Source: Papillibacter cinnamivorans DSM 12816
Lineage (GTDB): Bacteria; Bacillota; Clostridia; Oscillospirales; Oscillospiraceae
Direction of reading: 5' to 3'
DNA: 64,000 nt
Assembly (NCBI RefSeq): GCF_900176335.1
Contig: NZ_FWXW01000008.1
Span: 1 to 64,000, forward strand
The notes beneath the pieces were generated by a model. It worked only from the letters and a program-made list of their open reading frames with translations, did not search any database and was not told the origin of the DNA. Shown one piece after another: positions 10,311 through 16,950 of the stretch. Positions within the stretch are counted from its first letter, which is position 1, and every line of letters starts with the position of its first letter. Made by a program: the position numbers and the translations under genes.

Positions 10311-10403
10311 GGAGATGTCGCCTAGATTGGTCGAGGGCGCGCGACTGGAAATCGCGTAGGCCGCAAAACGGTCTCGAGAGTTCGAATCTCTCCATCTCCG
10401 CCA
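10311..10403 (+). tRNA. tRNA-Ser (anticodon GGA)
   Basis: A 93-nt class II tRNA. The acceptor GGAGATG (10311-10317) pairs with CATCTCC (10393-10399), followed by discriminator G and an encoded CCA. The anticodon stem CGCGA/TCGCG holds loop CTGGAAA, giving anticodon GGA. A long variable arm and the GTTCGAATC T-loop are present, as expected for tRNA-Ser. The AT-rich cassette beginning just downstream makes this a plausible integration point, though no duplicated tRNA end was found. Confidence 0.97.
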
Positions 10404-10519: not shown

Positions 10520-10906
10520 ATGAATGCTGTGATTAAAGAATTGATAGACGCTGCCGACAAAGCGATAAAAGAGGAACGGTTTGATGCGTTAATGGATTTT
10601 TATACTGAGGATGCGGTGCTTGTTGTCAAACCCGGTCTGGAAGCAAGAGGGAAAGAAGCAATTAAGCAAGCCTTTATAAAAATCGCTGCTTACTTTAAAA
10701 ACAGCGTAATCCCCACACAAGGGAAAATGCTTATGATTGAGGCTGGCGATACGGTTTTGGTTATGTCCCAGACCCTGTTGGAGTCTGATAATAAAAACGA
10801 ATCGGAATTCAGCATGGATCGACGCGCAACTTATATCTACCGAAATATTGATGGGAAGTGGCTGTGCGCAATAGACAATTCATATGGAACTTCCCTGCTT
10901 GATTAA
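10520..10906 (+). CDS. NTF2-like (SnoaL/DUF4440-type) small protein
   Basis: 128 residues with the pattern of a cone-shaped NTF2-like domain: an N-terminal helix ([24 protein letters not shown]), then [11 protein letters not shown] and a C-terminal beta section ending [17 protein letters not shown]. Members include isomerases, dehydratases and many binding proteins of unknown role, so no reaction can be named. It is AT-rich and lies alone between the tRNA terminator and the strong hairpin at 10946-10988, so it is probably a single-gene unit and the first gene of the acquired stretch. Confidence 0.7.
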
Positions 10907-11000: not shown

Positions 11001-11037
11001 CGCCGTCTCCACCCGGTTTGATTTTATCGCGACGGCG
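11001..11037 (+). repeat. Structured repeat element, copy 1
   Basis: CGCCGTC (11001-11007) and GACGGCG (11031-11037) form a 7-bp stem around a loop containing CCCGGTTTGATTTTATCGC. The same loop with a matching stem recurs at 12841-12877 and 14630-14668. Confidence 0.7.
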
Positions 11038-11125: not shown

Positions 11126-11563
11126 ATGTCAATAGATCTTGATGCCTTAATACCTTTTGAAAGAATAAAAAATGAGCCGCAGCAAGTATTTGACTTGGTG
11201 GACAAGTGTGGGCAAGTAATATTGTTGAAAAATAACGCTCCCGCGTATATCATTGTTAAACCCGAAATGGTATTGGGTTTTCAGCAACAAGCTGCAATAC
11301 CAACCATAACCAACAAGCACAAATCTTCCGCATATACGCTTCAAGAAGCTATGAAACTCGTGTTACTTGAAACCGAAGGGAACCAACTACATGCGGCAGA
11401 ACTAGCGGATACAATATTTTTGAAAGGTTTATATTACAAAAAAAACGGCAGCAAAGCCGAATATAACCAAATCAGAGCAAGGTGCGGCCACTATCCCGAT
11501 ATGTTTGAAGCGCTTCCTGGGAATATCATCAGGCTGAAAATCAGCGGAAAATCCGTGCATTAG
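11126..11563 (+). CDS. Phd/YefM-like N-terminal domain fused to a HARE-HTH-like winged helix
   Basis: About 145 residues from ATG 11126, preceded by GAGGTG at 6 bp. Residues 1-50 (FERIKNEPQQVFDLVDKCGQ, VILLKNNAPAYIIVKPEM) look like the Phd/YefM antitoxin fold, which binds DNA and neutralises a toxin. Residues 70-140 (LQEAMKLVLLE, LHAAELADTIF, YNQIRARCGHYPDMFE) resemble the HARE-HTH winged helix often linked to DNA modification and restriction. It heads a three-gene AT-rich cassette with a GIY-YIG nuclease-like protein. A regulator or antitoxin for that cassette is inferred; I am unsure of the C-terminal call. Confidence 0.55.
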   Translation: MSIDLDALIPFERIKNEPQQVFDLVDKCGQVILLKNNAPAYIIVKPEMVLGFQQQAAIPTITNKHKSSAYTLQEAMKLVLLETEGNQLHAAELADTIFLKGLYYKKNGSKAEYNQIRARCGHYPDMFEALPGNIIRLKISGKSVH

Positions 11564-11601
11564 GAAAACTAATTATAAAAATATACTAATAATGATAGGT
11601 G

Positions 11602-11832
11602 ATGGAACAAATGAGAGGTAAGAGAATATTCACCGAAAAAGAAGCGGCTGAAATCAGAGTACTAATCAAGCAAAAACAACATGAACCAGATAAGCAGAAA
11701 GCGATAAGAGACAAAATCAGACGACGCGGTTTTTACTATAATGATTTTCGGCCCAACCGGAATGACGGCGGTTATACTGTCGAAGATTTCAATGAATTAA
11801 TCGATACTGGTGAAATTCAGATCGTCGATTAG
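11602..11832 (+). CDS. Small charged protein of the GIY-YIG cassette
   Basis: About 76 residues from ATG 11602 (GATAGGTG upstream). It is strongly charged and helical (TEKEAAEIRVLIKQKQ, KAIRDKIRRRGFYYNDF) with a C-terminal YTVEDFNELIDTGEIQIVD. I do not recognise the family. It lies 38 bp after the Phd/HARE-like gene and 36 bp before the nuclease-like gene, in one probable operon, and has the size and charge of an accessory or antitoxin protein. Confidence 0.55.
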   Translation: MEQMRGKRIFTEKEAAEIRVLIKQKQHEPDKQKAIRDKIRRRGFYYNDFRPNRNDGGYTVEDFNELIDTGEIQIVD

Positions 11833-11868
11833 GACGTATCATACATTTTTCTATTGGGAGGAGTTATG

Positions 11869-12708
11869 ATGGAGCTAGATTATATATGTCCTTTCCCAAA
11901 CAGGTGGAACGAAATATATGAAAATTTGTGCAGAGCCTACGAAAACATAACGGGAATAATACTTCCAAAAACCGTTGTTGAGATCAGCAATGCCGGTGGA
12001 CCGCCGACCCCACTCATTTTAGCCGGCTGGGCGTTTACCAATGACGAGGATAAGAAGGATCGGTGGCAGGAAACACTTCATTGGGCTGAGAAACACAAAC
12101 TCCTCCATTTAACAAATGTTGAAGAGAGCGACAGATGTTATTCTTCCGGGCATACACGCGGCGGAGGAATCTGTTTCGGTGAATACTGCGCATATACCAA
12201 CGATATCATAGACCAATATAAGCTTTCCGATTATGTCACTTTAAATCAGTACATTTCCGACCCGGCGAGAGTAACGGCCAGACTGCCAGATACAAATGGT
12301 GTATATTTTGTAATCTTCCCTTATGAATGGCCTGAAGGTATGTTTGTCAATCCGGGCACCGGTGGCCATTTCAAAGGCAAAAATCCTAATGTGCCGATAG
12401 AGGAACTTTGGAGGAATTGGGTCGAAGAAGCGGATATTCTATATATAGGCAAAGCAGGAGGCACATCGGTAAACGGGATCCCATCAGATGCGACCTTAAA
12501 GGAAAGGATCGTTGCGCTGCTTCGGTTTGGAAACGGAAAAAACGTCGGCCACTGGGGCGGCCGATATCTGTGGCAGCATGAAAGCAGCCCGGATTTTCGA
12601 GTCTACTGGTATGCATGTGCGGATGAAAATCCCGTCGAACTTGAACAAAAACTGCTCAATGAATTTAAAAGAGTATGCTTAAAGAGACCTTTTGCAAATC
12701 TCAAGTAA
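11869..12708 (+). CDS. GIY-YIG nuclease-like protein with an unknown N-terminal domain
   Basis: 279 residues from ATG 11869, chosen because GGGAGGAG lies 5 bp upstream. The C-terminal half carries all marks of a GIY-YIG nuclease: GVYFVIF (144-150), ILYIGKAGG (190-198), LKERI with the catalytic Arg213, an acidic VELEQKLL with the metal Glu near 259, and a terminal Asn in PFANLK. The first 130 residues (CPFPNRWNEIYENL, PTPLILAGWAFTNDEDKKDRW, GGGICFGEYCAY) form a domain I do not know. The association with a Phd/HARE-HTH-like protein beside a tRNA suggests a restriction or toxin-antitoxin-like defence role, which is inference. Confidence 0.65.
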   Translation: MELDYICPFPNRWNEIYENLCRAYENITGIILPKTVVEISNAGGPPTPLILAGWAFTNDEDKKDRWQETLHWAEKHKLLHLTNVEESDRCYSSGHTRGGGICFGEYCAYTNDIIDQYKLSDYVTLNQYISDPARVTARLPDTNGVYFVIFPYEWPEGMFVNPGTGGHFKGKNPNVPIEELWRNWVEEADILYIGKAGGTSVNGIPSDATLKERIVALLRFGNGKNVGHWGGRYLWQHESSPDFRVYWYACADENPVELEQKLLNEFKRVCLKRPFANLK

Positions 12709-12840: not shown

Positions 12841-12877
12841 CGCCGTCTCCCCCCGGTTTGATTTTATCGCGACGGCG
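12841..12877 (+). repeat. Structured repeat element, copy 2
   Basis: Stem CGCCGTC/GACGGCG (12841-12847, 12871-12877) with the same CCCGGTTTGATTTT loop as copy 1. Here no terminator hairpin precedes it. Confidence 0.7.
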
Positions 12878-12983
12878 GAAGTGAACCTCAAACTATAAAG
12901 CTCTCACTTCATCTTTGGCTGTACATATTATATAGCAGCACAGGATCCTTCAAAATCGAATGCGGCAATGGGAGATGAAATAC

Positions 12984-13550
12984 GTGCAAACCTTTAAAAG
13001 CTGCTCCGCTCCGAGCGTTTTTCCAAATCCGATCACGCAGGTTGCCGACATGCCCTATGCCCTGTATCTGTCGCTTCAGGGAAAATATTTCGTAGGGTAT
13101 GCCCCCGACGTGCAATTTGCTAAAAATAAATACGGATGGGCGGGACTGGTGAATCCCCCTCATTCCGGCGTGAATCTTCATGTCTATGTGTGGACGGTCA
13201 CCAATTTCGGCGCGTCTCCGCTGATTGCGGAAATTTGGTTCAACGCCGGTACGCCGGAGGGCGCGGCGGTATCCGAGTATATGTCGCCGGCCAACACCGC
13301 CCTCTGTCCCCTGCCGGAGCCAAGGGTGCAAATCCTTCAGGCGAACAATATCGGCGGCCCTCCCCCCGGCGGGGATCGGATCTCCGTCACAAAAGTCCCT
13401 TCCGAGGTTACGATCGTCGGCGCGGAAAACGGCGCATGGATCTTTCCGCCCGGCGGGTCCTTCAGCATTCTGTTATCCAACGCCGAGGCGTCCACTCTGT
13501 CGGGAATCGCAAACCTTGCTTTCGGATGGTGGGAAGAAGCAATCAAGTAA
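12984..13550 (+). CDS. DUF6143-like protein, first paralogue
   Basis: About 188 residues from GTG 12984, chosen because GGGAG lies 9 bp before it and the start then aligns with the next paralogue; ATG 12960 would add eight residues. Conserved blocks are FPNPITQV, LYLSLQGKYFVG, WAGLVNPPHSGVNLHVYVW, PANTALCPLPEPRV and IFPPGGSFSILL, ending FGWWEEAIK. This looks like DUF6143, a beta-rich family of unknown function in Firmicutes (name from memory). There is no signal peptide. The gene overlaps or adjoins nothing upstream and is 22 bp from its paralogue. Confidence 0.6.
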   Translation: MQTFKSCSAPSVFPNPITQVADMPYALYLSLQGKYFVGYAPDVQFAKNKYGWAGLVNPPHSGVNLHVYVWTVTNFGASPLIAEIWFNAGTPEGAAVSEYMSPANTALCPLPEPRVQILQANNIGGPPPGGDRISVTKVPSEVTIVGAENGAWIFPPGGSFSILLSNAEASTLSGIANLAFGWWEEAIK

Positions 13551-13572
13551 ATGAACAGGAGGTAATATAAAA

Positions 13573-14133
13573 ATGGAAAGCTGCAGGAAAAACGCCATAC
13601 TCCTACCCAATCCGATCACGCAGGTTGCCGGCATGCCCTATTCCCTGTACCTGTCGCTTCAGGGGAAGTATTTTTTAGGCTCCTCGGGAGATCTGACGTT
13701 CGGGAACGGCGCCAACGCCTGGGCCGGTTTATTCAACCCATGTAATTCCAGGGTCAATCTGCACGTGTATTCCTGGGAGGTAGCCAATACGGGTACGACG
13801 CCGGTCCGGGTGCGGATCTATTTCAATTCCTGCCCTCCCGGACAGGGGACACTGGTGGACGCGGTATACCCGGGCAACACAGCGCTGTGTCCGCCGCCGA
13901 GGCCGAGAATCAACCTGTATCGGGCGTCGGACGTTTCCGGCGAACCGGAGGGCGGGGTCAAGGTATTTGTAAGGAGAGCTCTGCCCGGAGTGACCGTGGG
14001 CGATGAAGAGGTGGGCAAATTCATCTTCCCGCCCGGAGGGTCCTTCCTGCTCTTCCTGTCCGATCCGGAGACGCCGGATGAGCCCGCCAGCGCGACCCTC
14101 GGCTTTTCCTGGTGGGAAGAAGCGATCAACTGA
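13573..14133 (+). CDS. DUF6143-like protein, second paralogue
   Basis: 186 residues with ribosome binding site AGGAGGTAAT. It repeats the blocks of the gene before it: LPNPITQVAGMPYSLYLSLQGKYF, WAGLFNPCNSRVNLHVYSW, PGNTALCPPPRPRI, FIFPPGGSFLLFLSD and a WWEEAIN end. The two genes form a tandem duplicate in one operon. The highly conserved Gly/Pro-rich surface motifs suggest a structural or binding protein; spore or envelope association is possible but not shown. It is followed by the 78-bp tandem repeats. Confidence 0.6.
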   Translation: MESCRKNAILLPNPITQVAGMPYSLYLSLQGKYFLGSSGDLTFGNGANAWAGLFNPCNSRVNLHVYSWEVANTGTTPVRVRIYFNSCPPGQGTLVDAVYPGNTALCPPPRPRINLYRASDVSGEPEGGVKVFVRRALPGVTVGDEEVGKFIFPPGGSFLLFLSDPETPDEPASATLGFSWWEEAIN

Positions 14134-14197
14134 AAAAGGCGGGCATAAAGCAGCGAATCCGGCGGTGCCAAACAGGGTGCCGCCGGTTGGTGTTCTT

Positions 14198-14431
14198 GCC
14201 TCCCTTGTCAAAGGGAGGGGGAGTGCCTCAGCGGTGGTAGGATTCCGAGGCGATTTACTCTTACCCTATAAGGGTGCCTCCCTTGTCAAAGGGAGGGGGA
14301 CCGCTTCAGCGGTGGTGAGATTCTGAGGCGGTTTGCTCTTGCCCCATAAGGGTGCCTCCCTTGTCAAAGGGAGGGGGACCGCTTCAGCGGTGGTGGGATT
14401 CCGAGGCGTGAAAGAACTTTTTTACGGAATC
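14198..14431. repeat. Three tandem 78-bp repeats
   Basis: Units begin GCCTCCCTTGTCAAAGGGAGG at 14198, 14276 and 14354, spaced by exactly 78 bp. Each contains a small palindrome and CAGCGGTGGT. Because 78 is a multiple of three the frames stay open, which makes false reading frames. No gene is supported here. Confidence 0.85.
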
Positions 14432-14629: not shown

Positions 14630-14668
14630 TTGCCGCTTCCGCCCGGTTTGATTTTCTCGCGGTGGCAA
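14630..14668 (+). repeat. Structured repeat element, copy 3 (changed stem)
   Basis: The loop CCCGGTTTGATTTT is kept. The stem TGCCGCT (14631-14637) still pairs with GGTGGCA (14661-14667), including a C-G to T-A change at the outer pair relative to copies 1 and 2. This points to selection on structure. Confidence 0.7.
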
Positions 14669-14678
14669 AGGCATGAGT

Positions 14679-15104
14679 TTACTTAGTCATAAATAAAACG
14701 ATTTTATTTGCAATCCATTTGAACAAACTCTTCTCATGATTCACGCTATTGACCATAGTTTCGGTAACATTTCCATCCTCATCGAATTGAATCATAAGAA
14801 ACGGTTGGATGAATGTACCTTTTCCTGTATAATATATCATTTTGTCTTTTCCTGAATCTTCAGAAACACCATTTTCCCCCAACAATTCAATGATTTGATC
14901 ATACTTCATACTTACAAAATCATATTTGCTATTCAGGCTGTCAATCATTCTCTCCCTCTGCCAGATATCTTGATTCCATTTTTCTGATGTAAATTCTATC
15001 GGTGTATGTAAATTGTTTTCAATAACTATAAAAACCAGATTGCTTAAAAATAAAATCAATACAATGATTGATGTAATGATTATTGCTTTTGGAATTTTTT
15101 TCAT
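14679..15104 (-). CDS. Small membrane-anchored protein
   Basis: 141 residues. An N-terminal membrane helix (AIIITSIIVLILFLSNLVFIV, about residues 8-28) is followed by a soluble part with SKYDFVSMKYDQIIELLGENG and a beta-rich FLMIQFDEDGNVTETMVN. The IIELLGENG segment recalls small outer-surface SmpA/BamE-like folds, but that is weak. Third gene of a minus-strand AT-rich group starting with the cyclase-like gene; its ribosome binding site is poor. The function is unknown, and a role as membrane effector or partner is only a hypothesis. Confidence 0.5.
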   Translation of the reverse strand: MKKIPKAIIITSIIVLILFLSNLVFIVIENNLHTPIEFTSEKWNQDIWQRERMIDSLNSKYDFVSMKYDQIIELLGENGVSEDSGKDKMIYYTGKGTFIQPFLMIQFDEDGNVTETMVNSVNHEKSLFKWIANKIVLFMTK

Positions 15105-15173
15105 GTCTTTGCCCCACTTCGGTCATTCATGACAAATTGTCCATTCACAATGTAGGCTGGGTAGCAGCAAGCT

Positions 15174-15458
15174 TTATACATTCCAGATGCCTACTATAAC
15201 GATGAACAGCCAAAAAGCACTGAACAGAATAAAATAATTGCCCAACCGTTTTGAATATTTTGTTCTGTTTTCAGGGGTATCGTCTGCAACCTTTTTTAGC
15301 CTTAAGCCACTTCTTATATACAACCCATCCACCTTTTTCCACGGATGATGAAACATGCAGGAAAAGTCATATTTGCGCATAAGAAGGCCAACTCCAGCCA
15401 GAACAAAAGAAAAAAAGAAACAGACTATACTCAATATTATTCTTGTGTTCGTGCTCAT
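15174..15458 (-). CDS. Two-helix membrane protein beside the cyclase-like gene
   Basis: 94 residues with ribosome binding site GAGGAG. One helix lies at about 6-27 (ILSIVCFFFSFVLAGVGLLM) and another at 73-92 (FILFSAFWLFIVIVGIWN), with a short basic and aromatic cytoplasmic or external segment between (FHHPWKKVDGLYIRSGLRLKK). It starts 52 bp after the cyclase-like gene ends on the same strand. Pycsar effectors can be small membrane proteins next to the cyclase, so an effector role is conceivable, but the sequence carries no recognisable cyclic-nucleotide pocket. Confidence 0.5.
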   Translation of the reverse strand: MSTNTRIILSIVCFFFSFVLAGVGLLMRKYDFSCMFHHPWKKVDGLYIRSGLRLKKVADDTPENRTKYSKRLGNYFILFSAFWLFIVIVGIWNV

Positions 15459-15510
15459 ACACGATACTCCTCATAAAGATAATGGGAAGTTTTCTAAATC
15501 GTAAAATGCT

Positions 15511-16266
15511 TTATATATTTAATAATAAGTTTAAAATCTGCGTTATTATTTCTTCGGTTCTACCCTCCATATTTTTGTTATGATCATGTTTAATCTGCTT
15601 TAAAATCCATAAATATTTTTGTAATATACTCTGATTGTGTTTATTTTGCTCAATGTTTTTTTCCAAGTAATTAAATATAGATGTATATAGTATCTTAGAT
15701 TGATCAATTCCACTTTCAAGCACCGGATAGATTCCATAAGATGATAGACTATAAACTCCATCATCATCTAATGCAAATTCCATTATTCCTTCATTCATAG
15801 CTTTGAACCGATCTTTCAATTCTATTACCAAAGAATTTTCAAGAATAATTCTGGGAGATACTGCGTTTTTTTCTGATAATACAGCCTTGTTCCATGCTTC
15901 ACCGAAGAATACACTGTTATCTTCGTCTATGTACATCGCGCCGGAAGTAATGGCACCTCTTAGATAAACGCCTTTTGTAGCTAATTTAAATTGCATAATA
16001 CATAATCTACGAATAACAAGATATACATTTGTGAAATTATGAGGAAACATAAAAAACATACTATCCGCACCCTGCATACTTATAATATGACTATTTTCCT
16101 CCATTGATTTTAAGGAGTTGTGAATAGGATTGTAATTTTTCATAAGATCTATTGCTTCATTTAAGGTAGTTTGCATTTCCTTAATTTTTTCAAAATCGCT
16201 AGTCATTGATTTAAAACCTAATATGTCAATAAAAGCTACACAATAGTCGAAATAAAGCTCTGCCAT
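15511..16266 (-). CDS. Class III nucleotide-cyclase-like protein (Pycsar-type candidate)
   Basis: 251 residues with ribosome binding site AGGAGAG 7 bp before ATG. The order of motifs follows the class III cyclase fold. FIDILGFK carries the first metal aspartate (Asp14). SMQGADSMFFMF carries the second (Asp68). Then come LRGAITSGAMY and FFGEAWNKAVLSEKNAVSPRI, matching the R.G...G...FG...N.A..LE pattern. There is no membrane segment or sensor domain, as in stand-alone anti-phage cyclases of Pycsar systems that make cCMP or cUMP. The product is not predictable by eye. It heads a minus-strand group with two small membrane proteins behind a promoter homologous to that of the AlbA_2 gene at 33117. 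Confidence 0.6.
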   Translation of the reverse strand: MAELYFDYCVAFIDILGFKSMTSDFEKIKEMQTTLNEAIDLMKNYNPIHNSLKSMEENSHIISMQGADSMFFMFPHNFTNVYLVIRRLCIMQFKLATKGVYLRGAITSGAMYIDEDNSVFFGEAWNKAVLSEKNAVSPRIILENSLVIELKDRFKAMNEGIMEFALDDDGVYSLSSYGIYPVLESGIDQSKILYTSIFNYLEKNIEQNKHNQSILQKYLWILKQIKHDHNKNMEGRTEEIITQILNLLLNI

Positions 16267-16368
16267 TACTGTTCTCTCCTATTAAATTTATAAATTTTAT
16301 GAGAATATTAATCCAATGTACCTACCCTTATAGTGAAAATAATATTAAAAAGAACTTACTCTTACAGA

Positions 16369-16403
16369 ATAATACATTTTTCTCTAACTTACAATAATTG
16401 GTG
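16369..16403 (-). promoter_or_regulatory. Promoter region of the cyclase-like operon
   Basis: On the minus strand CACCAATTATTGTAA is followed by TAGAGAAAA and a TATTATTCT stretch. The same CACCAATTATTGTAA and TAG.GAAAA blocks occur before the AlbA_2 gene. TTGTAA with a 17-bp spacer to TATTCT is the best promoter reading. Confidence 0.45.
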
Positions 16404-16413
16404 CATAATTAAC

Positions 16414-16436
16414 GGCCCTGATTATTAATCAGGGCC
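16414..16436. terminator. Terminator after the XRE genes
   Basis: GGCCCTGATTA/TAATCAGGGCC palindrome flanked by T-rich sequence on both strands. Its counterpart in the second module is at 33243-33273. Confidence 0.7.
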
Positions 16437-16443
16437 TTTACTA

Positions 16444-16695
16444 TTAACCATTATCCTGCTTCAATAACTCTTCCACAGTAATATCCAGCGCCTTTGCAAG
16501 AATAACGATCTCATAATCCTGTACGAGGCGGTACTGCCCTTCCAGTCTGGAAAGGCTCGTCGCGCTGATATCCATTCCCATGGTCTGAAGTTTTGCAAGG
16601 AAATCCTTTTGTTTGATGTGCTTCGCTTTTCTGATTGTCACGACTTTGGAACCGATTATATTCTTATTACCCGGCAAATCTTTTCTCGGTTTCAT
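16444..16695 (-). CDS. XRE-family helix-turn-helix regulator
   Basis: 83 residues with a Cro/CI-type helix-turn-helix: IGSKVVTIRKAKHIKQKDFLAKLQ, then MDISATSLSRLEGQYRLVQ and YEIVILAKALDITVEELL. It is a stand-alone DNA-binding domain without a ligand domain. It lies 31 bp after a second small HTH gene on the same strand and is followed by a terminator before the cyclase-like operon. It probably helps control the module; which operator it uses is unknown. Confidence 0.8.
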   Translation of the reverse strand: MKPRKDLPGNKNIIGSKVVTIRKAKHIKQKDFLAKLQTMGMDISATSLSRLEGQYRLVQDYEIVILAKALDITVEELLKQDNG

Positions 16696-16726
16696 TTTAA
16701 GCGCCTCACTATTCGGCTGGCTAATC

Positions 16727-16927
16727 TTACTCTTTTATATGCTCAATCACTTCATCCACTTCGCAATCAAGTATAAAACACAGTGTATCGAGGGTTTTCA
16801 TCGTGATTGCTTTGCCGTGCTTCATTCTGTGTAAGATGTTAGATGAAAAGCCATACTTAAAAATAAGCTGATATTCTGTAATTCCTTTTTTAAAGAGGGT
16901 TTGATAAAAAGGCTTATAGCTTATCAT
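16727..16927 (-). CDS. Small XRE-type helix-turn-helix regulator
   Basis: About 66 residues from ATG 16927, chosen because GAGGTGG lies 5 bp upstream; a GTG at 16936 overlaps that site. The sequence (KGITEYQLIFKYGFSSNILHRMKHGKA, TMKTLDTLCFILDCEVDEVIEHI) is a compact Cro/CI-like domain. It is divergent from the SLOG gene, and the shared intergenic region holds two overlapping palindromes on the SLOG promoter, so it is the obvious candidate to bind them and autoregulate. Confidence 0.8.
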   Translation of the reverse strand: MISYKPFYQTLFKKGITEYQLIFKYGFSSNILHRMKHGKAITMKTLDTLCFILDCEVDEVIEHIKE

Positions 16928-16950
16928 AAAAACCACCTCTTCAATACACT

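Follow-up and report, generated by a model that had tools for sequence, protein, structure and literature searches.

Do the three AT-rich genes downstream of a tRNA-Ser gene in the 64-kb stretch of DNA analysed here (the window), which comes from a gut-type Firmicute, encode a defence system, and if so, of what type? The original prediction proposed an undescribed restriction or toxin-antitoxin type unit, built from an antitoxin-like winged-helix protein, a small protein and a GIY-YIG nuclease with a new N-terminal domain. We consider a compact, horizontally acquired, restriction-like defence unit to be the best explanation of the locus and give it an even chance of being correct.

A repeat-bounded module contains three intact genes

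The predicted AT-rich open reading frames with good ribosome binding sites (RBS) are present at 11126-12708. The first gene, g1 (11126-11563, + strand; RBS gaggtga), encodes 145 aa with a predicted Phd/YefM-like N-terminal domain and a HARE-type winged helix. The second, g2 (11599-11832, + strand), encodes a small protein of 73-77 aa depending on whether translation starts at 11599, 11602 or 11611. The third, g3 (11866-12708, + strand; RBS gggagga), consists of an N-terminal domain (11866-12255) and a C-terminal GIY-YIG nuclease domain (12256-12708). All three genes are intact and run in the same direction with intergenic gaps of ca. 35-50 nt, and the cassette has a GC content of 0.38-0.46 compared with 0.57-0.65 upstream. 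The cassette had been placed just after tRNA-Ser(GGA) (10311-10403), but a SnoaL-like gene (10520-10906) lies between the two, as does a strong terminator hairpin. A duplicated tRNA 3' end was sought within the 64-kb window and is absent. The tRNA-adjacent setting of the cassette is a loose one.

A 37-bp direct repeat is found in three copies in the whole genome, every one at this locus, and its 20-base core occurs at only these three sites of the 2.89 Mb genome when fewer than three mismatches are allowed. R1 (CGCCGTCTCCACCCGGTTTGATTTTATCGCGACGGCG; 11001-11037, + strand) and R2 (12841-12877, + strand) are 97% identical and form the 5' and 3' edges of the cassette, bracketing g1-g2-g3. R3 (14631-14667, + strand; 78%) lies beyond a pair of DUF6143 genes and a second terminator hairpin. 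The placement of the repeats therefore splits the region into modules, one of which is g1-g2-g3. The repeat-bounded modules are ca. 1.8 kb each and are situated in a variable region near tRNA-Ser. In the R2-R3 interval, the DUF6143 proteins are encoded as a tandem pair at 12960-14133 (E 5e-46 and 1e-43), and a 78-nt repeat is present three times in tandem at 14197-14430 together with inverted GCCTCCCTTGTCAAAGGGAGG units. An AT-rich group of small minus-strand genes (14679-16936; GC 0.29-0.40), including one for a Cro/C1-type HTH protein, looks like a second variable insert and adjoins genes for an SCFA transporter and a thiolase.

The C-terminal domain of g3 has a complete GIY-YIG active site

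The complete active site attributed to g3 is confirmed by a 13-row alignment in which all conserved positions are present. G145 and Y147 (GVY), Y193 and G195 (YIG), R214, H229, E260 and N278 are invariant, and a long insert separates the GIY and YIG motifs. The domain thus contains both motifs, the catalytic Arg, the Glu and the C-terminal Asn by which the GIY-YIG superfamily is recognised. Profile matches to PDB entries are weak and confined to the stretch from YIG to the Arg (UvrC, E 0.046; endonuclease II, E 0.89), with the UvrC structure alignment spanning YVGKA..LKER. Matches of the nuclease family to Pfam are likewise weak, with seven members matching GIY_YIG_2 and six matching GIY-YIG.

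Relatives of the C-terminal half of g3 are widespread at 26-46% identity. Stand-alone relatives of ca. 160 aa are encoded on actinobacterial and other plasmids, where they adjoin DUF499 or two DNA methyltransferase genes, the latter arrangement being seen in L023. Three of the actinobacterial plasmid genes (L023:2534-3492, L025:2534-3492 and L020:2543-3561) are located directly 3' of a gene for a ca. 157 aa protein. Relatives within the same bacterial family have another N-terminal domain (L006, L007 and L008), which is DUF6508-like in L007 (E 0.09). The majority of GIY-YIG relatives from this bacterial family are situated away from any obvious defence locus. The nuclease part of L007 also shows a weak match to the PADLOC family UzuA (E 0.001). 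GIY-YIG relatives were also sought on viral contigs and none was found.

Relatives of the g3 N-terminal domain occur across many phyla

The N-terminal domain of g3 matches no family in Pfam, NCBIfam, PADLOC or PHROGs. It is nevertheless not unique, as its description as new had implied: 25 relatives were identified across many phyla. A stricter motif pattern used earlier gave no matches, and neither did back-translation scans with the g3 domain as single protein, because the chosen peptides fall outside the conserved core. The first lead was a weak match in a phylum-wide search, a 104-aa protein encoded between hsdS and hsdR (L036). A pattern of the shared core added two relatives on viral contigs, and an alignment-based search then gave 23 genome loci. 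Other weak matches from the phylum-wide search (L035, L038 and L041 among them) were discarded as chance, as no common motif emerged in alignments. The family loci span Proteobacteria, Verrucomicrobia, Planctomycetes, Chloroflexi, Acidobacteria, Omnitrophota and others, a distribution whose sampling is biased since the search pattern was partly derived from the query.

Judged by sequence, there is no doubt that the g3 N-terminal domain is a divergent member of this unannotated family of ca. 100 aa, whose consensus reads CPxPxxWNxLW...PPxPLILAxW...K..R..E...WA. A hidden Markov model (HMM) built from 23 other members, with the window sequence left out, gives the g3 domain a score of 63 bits (E 8e-16 in a search space of 1e6 sequences), while the best of 2000 shuffled sequences reaches ca. 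7 bits. An HMM built from 18 short LAAW-type proteins alone still gives 49 bits. The g3 domain carries the family residues W14, P46-P47, P49-A53, W55, K63 and R66. Stand-alone members are ca. 95-115 aa long and share 30-41% identity with it. The closest subfamily (L067-L070 and L074; 36-41% identity), which comes from unrelated phyla, shows a weak match to DciA in the C-terminal part (E 0.0009-0.0014, below cut-off) and possibly represents a nucleic-acid-binding fusion. Fusion to a GIY-YIG domain was found only in the window among the family loci examined. The family is rare in Bacillota, with convincing scores from the window and L036 only among 398 genomes. An AlphaFold model of the domain has a confident core (pTM 0.67), and a fold search with it returned no match in the PDB or a viral structure library.

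The N-terminal domain family is frequently associated with restriction genes

Restriction-modification genes, identified by Pfam matches of the query proteins, are present in the available DNA of 11 of the 25 family loci. The family gene is located directly between hsdS and hsdR in L036 and L088, and type I genes are nearby in a further five loci (L081, L084, L086, L087 and L089). In four others (L072, L073, L076 and L085), a Res-type helicase gene directly precedes the family gene and a DNA methyltransferase gene directly follows it. Restriction genes were found in none of 27 short unrelated control loci and in one of eight longer ones; as these controls are unmatched for length or phylum, the comparison is supportive and not a measured enrichment. 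The remaining 14 loci have no restriction genes in the available DNA, several of these contigs being short, and the association is therefore frequent without being a strict requirement. Restriction and methyltransferase queries gave no match in the 64-kb window, so that by these queries g3 is not part of a restriction-modification operon.

An unnamed protein of type I and Res-methyltransferase operons from many phyla is now tied to a nuclease in one chain, and the g3 fusion offers a direct handle on the role of this recurring restriction-operon protein. We consider the link to an unannotated, restriction-linked family a more interesting result than the new domain originally claimed.

g1 appears to combine Phd-like and HARE-type domains and has relatives next to defence genes

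Family profile matches and a predicted model support the proposed make-up of g1, an antitoxin-like fold joined to a winged helix. HARE-HTH (PF05066) is matched by all eight aligned members of the g1 family (best 5.9e-5) and Phd/YefM by six of the eight (best 1.1e-4). The window protein itself remains below threshold for both, with 14.9 bits for HARE-HTH (cut-off 25.9; 0.035) and 15.4 bits for Phd/YefM (cut-off 29.8; 0.016), and a relative 41% identical to g1 reaches 23.5 for HARE-HTH (cut-off 25.9). The predicted model (mean pLDDT 69) has a Phd-like unit of topology b-a-a-b-b and, after it, a winged helix. The Phd-like unit matches the Phd-Doc structure 3k33 locally (38 columns, rmsd 2.2) and the winged helix matches forkhead domains locally, all PDB matches falling short of E 0.001. 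The g1 protein appears to carry both the Phd/YefM and the HARE-HTH fold and is a putative regulator, antitoxin-like protein or reader of modified DNA. For HARE-HTH domains in restriction settings, recognition of modified bases has been proposed (PMC10853773).

Relatives with 51-55% identity to g1 are encoded on nine viral contigs (L011-L019), some of which are near-duplicates of one another. In the contigs read, the g1 relative is directly followed by a small open reading frame of one of two families and then by varying cargo: a GmrSD-type gene in L011-L013, an AlbA_2 gene in L015 and L018, a DUF4209 gene in L017, where an SRA-HNH gene lies upstream of the g1 relative, and other cargo behind further relatives where the contig reaches far enough. 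One of the proteins encoded directly 3' of g1 relatives is 69-71 aa long (KTCWIAHSKE...NREYPCPAEKQEDI; L011:5403-5618 and L014:5405-5614), has no Pfam annotation and accompanies the GmrSD cargo in L011. In L092, the g1 relative stands alone downstream of chemotaxis genes. As a regulator-like gene ahead of various defence-type cargos, g1 could serve as bait for finding more systems.

No convincing relative of g2 was found in any collection searched. The type I island repressor RptR (79 aa; PMC12255303) was considered as a counterpart of g2 or of the g3 N-terminal domain and dropped as its described structure differs, a distinction based on the description alone.

The complete cassette is so far a single case

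A lack of co-occurrence of the three genes elsewhere had been named beforehand as a refutation of the defence proposal, and none of the other genomes and contigs searched contains the set. At E 1e-4, no locus examined besides the window's own combines even two of the cassette parts, so the cassette is a single case so far. PADLOC-DB contains no family matching g1, g2 or g3. These two results speak against the restriction-like reading, as do the lack of restriction and methyltransferase matches in the window, the solitary g1 relative of L092 and the GIY-YIG relatives that mostly lie away from defence loci. Of the cassette parts, two have the predicted link to defence: the g3 N-terminal domain through its family, and g1 through relatives with GmrSD or AlbA_2 downstream or SRA-HNH upstream. 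This link does not extend to a linkage of the three genes elsewhere.

A proposed type IV-like restriction unit and its alternatives

The combination of a nuclease with a second domain, a winged-helix companion and no methyltransferase is best accommodated by a type IV-like restriction unit whose action depends on a modification or a target, a reading that we believe and doubt in equal measure. In this mechanism g3 would be a single-chain endonuclease whose GIY-YIG domain cuts DNA, with the restriction-associated N-terminal domain giving targeting or control. As the cassette has no methyltransferase, a type IV-like mode is the simplest: DNA with a foreign feature, for example a modified base, would be cut and host DNA spared, and we infer that phage would be the target of such defence. 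The missing methyltransferase is consistent with, and not proof of, modification-dependent cleavage. g1 would bind DNA via its HARE-type winged helix, most likely as repressor of the operon, its Phd-like part may also restrain the nuclease, and g2 would be an accessory factor. More tentatively, and with doubt outweighing belief, the PPxPLILAxW family may be a widely shared module, not described before, that provides restriction systems with targeting or control; in the window, its fusion to GIY-YIG under a Phd-HARE regulator would have given rise to a new stand-alone type IV-like system.

The cassette could instead be a toxin-antitoxin unit in which g1 is the antitoxin, g3 or g2 the toxin, and g3 cuts host DNA upon loss of g1. 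The Phd-like part of g1 would then neutralise and the winged helix repress. We consider this toxin-antitoxin reading rather unlikely. In its favour are the apparent Phd-like part of g1, given the Phd/YefM matches of six of eight relatives and the local match to 3k33, the antitoxin-first gene order and the small partner genes that follow g1 relatives on viral contigs. In Phd, the toxin-binding part comes after the Phd fold. A winged helix occupies this position in g1, however. The neighbours of g1 relatives are unrelated from locus to locus or, in L092, missing, a pattern more in keeping with a regulator than with a dedicated antitoxin.

A nuclease of repair-like character or a mobile-element remnant, placed beside g1 and g2 by chance, would fit the variable, repeat-divided region. 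It would also fit the surroundings of GIY-YIG relatives from the bacterial family of the window, where the ordinary genes alongside, read by eye from sequence, encode for example topoisomerase-like subunits (L097) and a HAD-type hydrolase or oxidoreductases (L094 and L096). That the three genes are intact and codirectional, have good ribosome binding sites and form one R1-R2 block makes such a housekeeping or selfish origin improbable, as do the restriction links seen elsewhere for both the N-terminal domain and g1. Finally, g3 might be an accessory nuclease of a restriction-modification system encoded elsewhere in the genome, docked on a host methyltransferase or restriction complex by its N-terminal domain. 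The stand-alone family gene within type I and Res-methyltransferase operons may, by virtue of that position, encode an adaptor for those complexes, but the restriction queries found no partner in the 64-kb window and we regard this role as improbable.

Comparison with known systems

The type IV-like reading can be set against GIY-YIG enzymes with experimentally shown activity. CMoRE/PD-T4-3 is a type IV enzyme for 5hmC/5ghmC DNA (PMC12923530) and, like g3, joins a GIY-YIG nuclease and a separate second domain in one chain; the g1-g2-g3 cassette equally has no methyltransferase partner. The nuclease is N-terminal with a GIYxY motif in CMoRE/PD-T4-3, whereas in g3 it is C-terminal with GVYFV, and g3 comes with two companion genes. 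The second domains give no sign of kinship, as judged without direct comparison. The 6mA-dependent wH-GIY-YIG endonucleases Ahi29725I and Apa233I (PMC11037411) share with the cassette the pairing of a winged helix and a GIY-YIG nuclease. In the cassette, however, the winged helix is HARE-like and part of a separate protein, g1, and the nuclease bears a PPxPLILAxW domain instead. With HARE-HTH restriction fusions and Phd/YefM antitoxins, g1 appears to share both folds, but the window protein is below both Pfam cut-offs and has no PADLOC-DB model. The small PPLPLILAAWW proteins of restriction operons (L036, L072, L088 and others) fall in the same sequence family as the g3 N-terminal domain; they are stand-alone or, in one subfamily, carry a weakly DciA-like domain, whereas in g3 the domain is fused to a GIY-YIG nuclease.
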